NCBI GenBank assembly: GCA_021268355.1
Contig: JAJETY010000002.1
Location: 1 to 61,363, forward strand
Length of the DNA stretch: 61,363 nt
Source: Candidatus Nitrosopumilus sp.
Lineage (GTDB): Archaea; Thermoproteota; Nitrososphaeria; Nitrososphaerales; Nitrosopumilaceae
Direction of reading: 5' to 3'
Part shown: positions 30,689-31,352 of the stretch, piece after piece
Numbering within the stretch: position 1 is the first letter of the stretch
Layout of the letters: each line of letters starts with the position of its first letter
Position numbers and translations under genes: made by a program
The notes under the pieces: model-generated
The model's database searches: none
Told to the model about the DNA's origin: nothing
Seen by the model: the letters and a program-made list of their open reading frames with translations, nothing else

Positions 30689-30712
30689 TATGGTTTTTAG
30701 TAGGATGGCCTC

Positions 30713-30720
30713 TATAATTA
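30713..30720 (+). promoter_or_regulatory. TATA-like box upstream of the H/ACA-like RNA
   Basis: TATAATTA lies 16-23 bp before the first stem (30736). Archaeal initiation about 26 bp downstream of the box centre would start the transcript near the base of hairpin 1, about 30737-30743, or slightly before. Confidence 0.45.
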
Positions 30721-30735
30721 ATCGCCCAAGAGCAG

Positions 30736-30888
30736 GCACGCAGACGGATTAGGATGATGTCGATCGTAATGATACCAATGATTTCTAATTCACCCAGGCG
30801 TGCTACATTATGGGCGCCCCGGTTTCAGAACCCAAGGAGGTTTTGGCTAAAATACCAATGATCTTGTGCGAGTCAGAACCGGGGAACA
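30736..30888 (+). ncRNA. probable double-hairpin H/ACA guide RNA
   Basis: Two 68-nt hairpins in tandem, 81 nt apart. Hairpin 1: GCACGC (30736-30741) with GCGTGC (30798-30803), internal loop, then upper stem GGATTAG/CTAATTC. Hairpin 2: CCCCGGTTT (30817-30825) with GAACCGGGG (30876-30884). Each hairpin carries ATACCAATGAT on its 3' side (30772-30782, 30852-30862), which contains CCAAUGA as in the U4-type K-turn that binds L7Ae. Each stem is followed after one base by ACA (30805-30807, 30886-30888). These are the defining parts of archaeal H/ACA RNAs that guide pseudouridylation. No convincing ORF lies here. Targets are not assigned. Confidence 0.7.
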
Positions 30889-30932
30889 TTTCATAAACCA
30901 TTAAACATCCCTTGGTGCAACAAAATTTGAAA

Positions 30933-31352
30933 ATGGTAAACTATTGGTTGGCAAAACAAGAACCAAGCGGACCTAGAGGTTACAACTTTGAACAACTGAA
31001 AAAAGACAAAACCACAGTTTGGGATGGAGTCCACAACAATCTAGCTCTAAAACACATGAGAGAAATGAAACCTGGTGATCTTGTGTTTTTCTATCATACC
31101 GGCGATGAAAGACAAGCAGTTGGAATTATGGAAGTTACTTCCAAGCCATATTCAAATCCCAAAGAAGATGTTGAACGCTTTATTGTTGTTGATGTAAAAT
31201 ACAAAAAATCACTTAAACGTCCTGTAACCCTTGACGAACTGAAAAATAATAAAAAATTCAAAGATTGGGAATTAATCCGAATATCAAGATTATCTGTTAT
31301 GCCTGTCCCAAAACCAATTTGGGAAGAGATTTTAAAGATTTCTCAAACTTGA
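30933..31352 (+). CDS. EVE domain protein
   Basis: 139 residues from ATG 30933 (MVNYWLAKQEPSGPRGYNFEQL). EVE domains belong to the PUA-like superfamily and read modified bases; the sequence WDGVHNNLALKHMREMKPGDLVFFYHT is diagnostic, as is the end around SVMPVPKPIWEEIL. In other organisms they bind modified DNA or RNA such as modified cytosine. It follows the guide RNA by 45 bp. An in-frame TTG at 30912 would add seven residues. Confidence 0.88.
   Translation: MVNYWLAKQEPSGPRGYNFEQLKKDKTTVWDGVHNNLALKHMREMKPGDLVFFYHTGDERQAVGIMEVTSKPYSNPKEDVERFIVVDVKYKKSLKRPVTLDELKNNKKFKDWELIRISRLSVMPVPKPIWEEILKISQT

Follow-up and report, generated by a model that had tools for sequence, protein, structure and literature searches.

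Genes or gene pairs that carry several H/ACA hairpins have been described in archaea, namely the haloarchaeal HP1+HP2, Pab40 (Pf7) of Pyrococcus and Afu4 of Archaeoglobus (PMC2584109, PMC4652768), and productive archaeal guides have a GA stem of 10 bp with 14–15 nt between this stem and the ACA box (PMC4652768). In yeast, the pseudouridines at 25S positions 2264 (guided by snR3) and 2266 (snR84) correspond to E. coli 1921 and 1923 (PMC8307265; numbering by offset, PMC2584109). The equivalence of yeast 2264 with E. coli 1921 follows from its location six nucleotides after 2258, which equals E. coli 1915 (numbering of PMC2584109).

The locus analysed here comprises two tandem hairpins on the forward strand of a Nitrosopumilus genome, at positions 30732–30888 of the window (the whole stretch of DNA studied, 61,363 nt). 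The hairpins are hereafter called HP1 (30735–30804, with a 3′ ACA at 30805–30807) and HP2 (30817–30884, with a 3′ ACA at 30886–30888). The Pab40/Afu4/haloarchaeal HP1-HP2 group is the closest functional parallel, as its members act on helix 69 and, at E. coli 2586, on the peptidyl-transferase centre, two parts of 23S rRNA to which the present hairpins are also complementary. That group modifies 1915/1917, whereas HP2 of the present RNA points at 1921, and HP1, unlike its counterparts there, leaves five target bases open. Because the HP2 site differs and no archaeal H/ACA family of Rfam matched the RNA even at E ≤ 10, it was set apart from the Pab40/Afu4 family. The resemblance to snR3 and snR84 is one of position and not of shown sequence homology, and eukaryotic H/ACA snoRNAs have no kink-turn, whereas the present RNA has kink-turns. 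Within Rfam, SNORA62 (RF00091) aligned weakly with HP2 including CCAAUGA (14.9 bits, E = 1.8, against a gathering score of 80 bits), and the two share only the general H/ACA shape. A literature search for H/ACA RNAs in Nitrosopumilus, Thaumarchaeota and ammonia-oxidising archaea found none described. The RNA is new to Rfam and ordinary in kind, a small guide RNA found in marine ammonia-oxidising archaea; that it escaped the Rfam families is explained by the shortness and rapid divergence of H/ACA guides.

That the locus encodes an H/ACA RNA we regard as virtually certain. The full reading, a two-hairpin archaeal H/ACA guide of ~160–168 nt that extends from 30724 to about 30891 on the forward strand and has two targets in 23S rRNA, is in our judgement very probable. 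Structure, conservation, complementarity to rRNA and the genes of the modification machinery were all computed, and the last of these, Cbf5, Nop10, Gar1 and L7Ae, are all encoded, each scoring over its curated cut-off.

Each hairpin consists of a lower stem, a pocket of two strands, an upper stem and a kink-turn that contains tandem sheared G.A pairs, and is followed by a 3′ ACA. The original prediction had placed the two hairpins correctly, with spans of 68 nt, an ACA-to-ACA period of 81 nt and the element ATACCAATGAT in both (30772–30782 and 30852–30862, 80 nt apart). It had also placed one base between stem and ACA in both hairpins, which holds for HP2, where a single A separates the two, and fails for HP1, where an additional basal pair, G30735.U30804, brings the ACA immediately next to the stem.

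In HP1 the 5′ strand of the lower stem (30735–30741) pairs with 30798–30804, the 3′ strand in the genus alignment, and is paired in 99.2% of the alignment cells; the genus set has double changes in 3 of the 7 pairs, the wider set in 6. The 5′ guide AGACGG (30742–30747) leads into the upper or GA stem, whose 5′ strand (30748–30757) pairs with the 3′ strand (30780–30789), the terminal GA of the former belonging to the kink-turn and the first bases of the latter being the GA of AAUGA. This stem, A30748–A30757 with G30780–U30789, amounts to ten pairs including a U.U and two sheared pairs, and shows compensatory changes at three pairs. The apical (C) stem-loop together with the 3-nt kink-turn bulge AAU occupies 30758–30779 according to the comparative alignments, and the 3′ guide UCACCCAG (30790–30797) precedes the 3′ strand of the lower stem. 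The distance between the GA stem and the ACA is UCACCCAG plus GCGUGCU, i.e., 15 nt, which fits the published spacing rule exactly (PMC4652768).

In HP2 the lower stem is formed by CCCCGGUU (30817–30824) and AACCGGGG (30877–30884, from the genus alignment), is paired in 99.7% of the cells and is double-changed in 4 of 8 pairs of the wider set. The pocket strands are UCAGAA on the 5′ side (30825–30830), with AGA present in most homologues, and CGAGUCAG on the 3′ side (30869–30876), with the core guide GUCAG at 30872–30876. The upper stem has its 5′ strand at 30831–30838, including the terminal GA of the kink-turn, and its 3′ strand, which begins with GA, at 30860–30868; 3 of 6 pairs are double-changed. 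In the source species it is interrupted by a C.U mismatch and by a single bulged base, and the GA stem of HP2 reaches 10 pairs only with one bulge and non-standard pairs. Between the two strands lie the apical stem-loop GGUUUU..AAAAUACC and the bulge AAU (30839–30859), where 3 of 6 pairs are frequently double-changed (e.g., C-G/U-A and A-U/U-A). GUCAG, AACCGGGG and the single A add up to 14 nt, within the productive range (PMC4652768).

Folding of the single sequence was moderately better than that of dinucleotide shuffles, with z-scores of −2.0 for the whole element and −2.14 and −2.83 for the halves. Since these z-scores alone are weak, the case rests on relatives. A DNA search across 95 genomes of the genus returned the element from 81, including 54 of the 56 good ones, and 37 Nitrosopumilus sequences were aligned without the use of structure. 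The 40 proposed pairs were formed in 95.0% of the cells of this genus alignment, compared with 27–49% when the partner strand was slid by 1–3 columns, and 14 of the 40 were double-changed; none of 500 shuffles came as high. The compensatory changes that had been anticipated for related Nitrosopumilus genomes thus exist. RNAalifold, applied independently to the same alignment, arrived at the lower and apical stems as well as the upper stem of HP1, and gave 10 double-changed pairs.

A covariance model derived from the genus alignment matched 173 of 185 genomes of the family (128 of the 131 good ones), with all 20 genera represented, and also part of the order. The covariance search with H/ACA models that had been proposed earlier gave no match to the archaeal H/ACA families of Rfam. 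In 36 family and order sequences, aligned by fitting to the model, 33 of 45 modelled pairs were double-changed, and in that same model-fitted alignment the covariation score was 0.362 as against at most 0.100 in slid controls. While the stems vary, both ACA boxes, ACGG, ACCCAG and GUCAG are kept in 36 of 36 homologues, and the tandem sheared G.A/A.G pairs of both kink-turns, with the 3-nt bulge before GA, in 35 of 36. A stem shape preserved by compensation around pockets preserved letter by letter is what characterises a guide RNA. The original prediction of a double-hairpin H/ACA guide with L7Ae kink-turns is borne out by the compensation, the constancy of the sheared G.A pairs and the ACA boxes, the spacing of 14–15 nt, the encoded proteins and the pockets complementary to 23S rRNA, and the RNA appears to possess nearly all sequence-level traits of an archaeal box H/ACA guide sRNA. 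The accompanying proposal that the hairpins arose by internal duplication is unproven, as the score of the global HP1/HP2 alignment was reached by 10 of 1000 shuffles and the similarity is concentrated in the kink-turn.

The alignment of relatives bears on whether the RNA could instead be a box C/D methylation guide, given that GATGATG and ATGA resemble C boxes and that GGAUGAUG of HP1 in particular resembles RUGAUGA. The C-like word is altered in many relatives (e.g., GGAUGAGU and GGAUGACG), no CUGA D/D′ boxes are present at the right places, and the conserved stems, pockets and ACA boxes fit H/ACA; the box C/D reading is contradicted by the alignment and its probability is negligible.

A wider covariance model extended the matches to further classes of the phylum, with E-values as low as 9e-13; in these classes HP1 keeps GACGG, (U)UACCCAG, the kink-turn and the ACA. 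Nine loci from other classes have an HP1 with GACGG/UUUACCCAG and a second hairpin where GUUAG and GAGAGAG replace GUCAG/AGA; this GUUAG could pair with CUGAC by way of a U.G wobble. In nine order-level loci of another family only an HP2-like hairpin with GUCAG was seen, and no adjoining ACCCAG HP1 was found. Three loci of one genus in a further family have a spacer between the hairpins, and HP1 and HP2 may be independent RNAs in this genus. Two genomes of one genus within the same family contain two copies of the RNA each; both assemblies are fragmented and one has 5% contamination, so a different strain may be the source of the second copy.

Targets were sought in rRNA genes taken from the source genome and from related genomes. 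The 23S stretches of the proposed sites are CUGGGUUUAGACCGUC for HP1 and CUGACUCUCU for HP2, and in the relatives that were examined neither site shows any difference, save for three genomes with an interrupted 23S. Because the rRNA sites are unchanged in relatives, no guide/target covariation could be used. In these three order-level relatives the 23S gene appears to be broken by an intron immediately upstream of CUUAAGG, at a point within the region targeted by HP2.

For HP2, GUCAG can pair with CUGAC and AGA with UCU in CUGAC[UC]UCUUAAGG of the helix 69–71 region of 23S, the sole such site in rRNA. CTGACNNTCT occurs once in rRNA, UCUGACUC also matches GAGUCAGA, and shuffled HP2 guides found a match in 2.7–3.4% of cases. 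HP2 pairs with the equivalents of E. coli 1916–1920 and 1923–1925, with a 3′ duplex of three pairs only, and the uridine in between is 1921. The base next to GUCAG varies between A and G, by which an A-U or G.U pair with U1921 is retained. U1923 was considered as the target on the basis of a 7-bp CUGACUC arm and rejected, as its 3′ side fits poorly and U1921 uses the conserved AGA. This 23S region is likely to be the target of HP2, and U1921 is the base that we favour, with a degree of reserve. A thaumarchaeal guide at U1921, a position also modified in yeast, bears on the age of that modification.

For HP1, the peptidyl-transferase centre contains CUGGGU-UUAGA-CCGUC, whose two arms are perfect complements of ACCCAG and GACGG. 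The pattern CTGGGTN{2,6}CCGTC occurs a single time in the whole 1.34-Mb genome, within the 23S gene, and with shuffled HP1 guides only 0.55% of trials produced a site of this type anywhere in rRNA. The site is what we take to be E. coli 2579–2594, in agreement with the 2584/2586 equivalences, and the open stretch then includes U2585 and U2586. A strict scan for targets with a two-base gap returned many middling HP1 sites, among them 16S GGUGAA[UA]CGUC, which was rejected since pairing there makes no use of the invariant CCAG and is broken in relatives with CCACCCAG. Pairing of the pockets with rRNA was found for HP2 with the usual two-base gap and for HP1 with two perfect 23S arms, but with five bases (UUAGA) open rather than two, which leaves the exact HP1 target base uncertain. 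We assign HP1 to this 23S region with good confidence, equal to that for HP2, and hold the chances of pseudouridylation at U2585/2586 to be evenly balanced. The RNA is nearly universal in the family, and both of its invariant guides have a named site in 23S.

The open stretch also suggests that HP1, or both hairpins, could act as an H/ACA-type folding or assembly chaperone on 23S that does not modify it. The eukaryotic snR30/U17 is an H/ACA-type RNA that acts as an rRNA chaperone without modifying. Five open bases in place of two would suit such a role, as would guide words that force this spacing, are invariant over the order and recur in other classes. On the other hand, HP1 has the features of a productive guide (a 10-bp GA stem, 14–15 nt to the ACA and a 5′ duplex of 6 bp), Haloarcula has a pseudouridine at 2621, the equivalent of the bracketed E. 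coli 2586 (PMC2584109), and a third unpaired target residue has already been proposed to be accommodated by the haloarchaeal HP2. A chaperone that leaves its target unmodified is on balance improbable, and modification guided by the two hairpins is the reading that we follow below. As the guides, the kink-turn and the ACA are kept in other classes, the odd spacing of HP1 is old. It is conceivable, though we hold it doubtful, that HP1 is a phylum-wide module whose invariant arms bracket an open U2585–A2589, that it either modifies through a relaxed three-way junction outside the UN rule or chaperones the catalytic core, and that it predates the split of the Thermoproteota classes.

The steps from transcription through RNP assembly to modification, and with them the exact target bases, are inferred as follows. 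The transcript would start near GCCCAAGAGC and end shortly after the second ACA. L7Ae would bind the kink-turn atop each hairpin and Cbf5-Nop10-Gar1 would occupy the lower stem and the ACA box, the pocket strands would pair with 23S, and an unpaired uridine would enter the active site of Cbf5. HP2 (GUCAG...AGA) on CUGAC[U C]UCU would lead to pseudouridylation of the uridine that corresponds to E. coli U1921, and HP1 (ACCCAG...GACGG), pairing on either side of UUAGA in CUGGGUUUAGACCGUC, would convert U2585 or U2586.

The 5′ end of the transcript is probably marked by GCCCAAGAGCA (30724–30734), which is nearly invariant across the genus. Upstream of it, the box-A-like element TTTTTAGTA (30694–30702, forward strand) lies 22–30 nt before the conserved start and is kept in most of 68 congeneric sequences, and its spacing suggests a role as promoter element. 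The sequence around it varies in these 68, including TATAATTA (30713–30720), which had been pointed out as TATA-like and, as a promoter, has to give way to TTTTTAGTA.

The RNA is flanked by a divergent gene for a small membrane protein (start about 30688) and by an EVE-domain gene on the forward strand (30933–31352; PF01878, 7e-41) that starts 45 nt downstream, and the order pheT - RNA - EVE is kept throughout the genus loci examined. Binding of archaeal L7Ae to kink-turns in mRNA is reported (PMC5539422), and the constant proximity of the EVE gene in congeneric loci would be compatible with a kink-turn leader by which L7Ae regulates this gene in cis. Such a leader has no need of ACA boxes, invariant pocket words or rRNA complementarity, one locus of another genus keeps the RNA with no EVE gene found beside it, and the RNA ends at the ACA, with a separate conserved AAACCATTAAAC-like element preceding the EVE gene. 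We therefore consider a cis-regulatory leader very improbable and retain the guide RNA. EVE domains bind modified nucleobases; the position of such a gene beside a modification guide is possibly meaningful and possibly due to chance. In much of the genus, ATGGTTT upstream (30690–30696) and AAACCAT downstream (30895–30901) form an inverted repeat flanking the RNA. A processing stem formed by the two was rejected, as the two sides show no covariation across relatives, and they are probably separate promoter-type elements.
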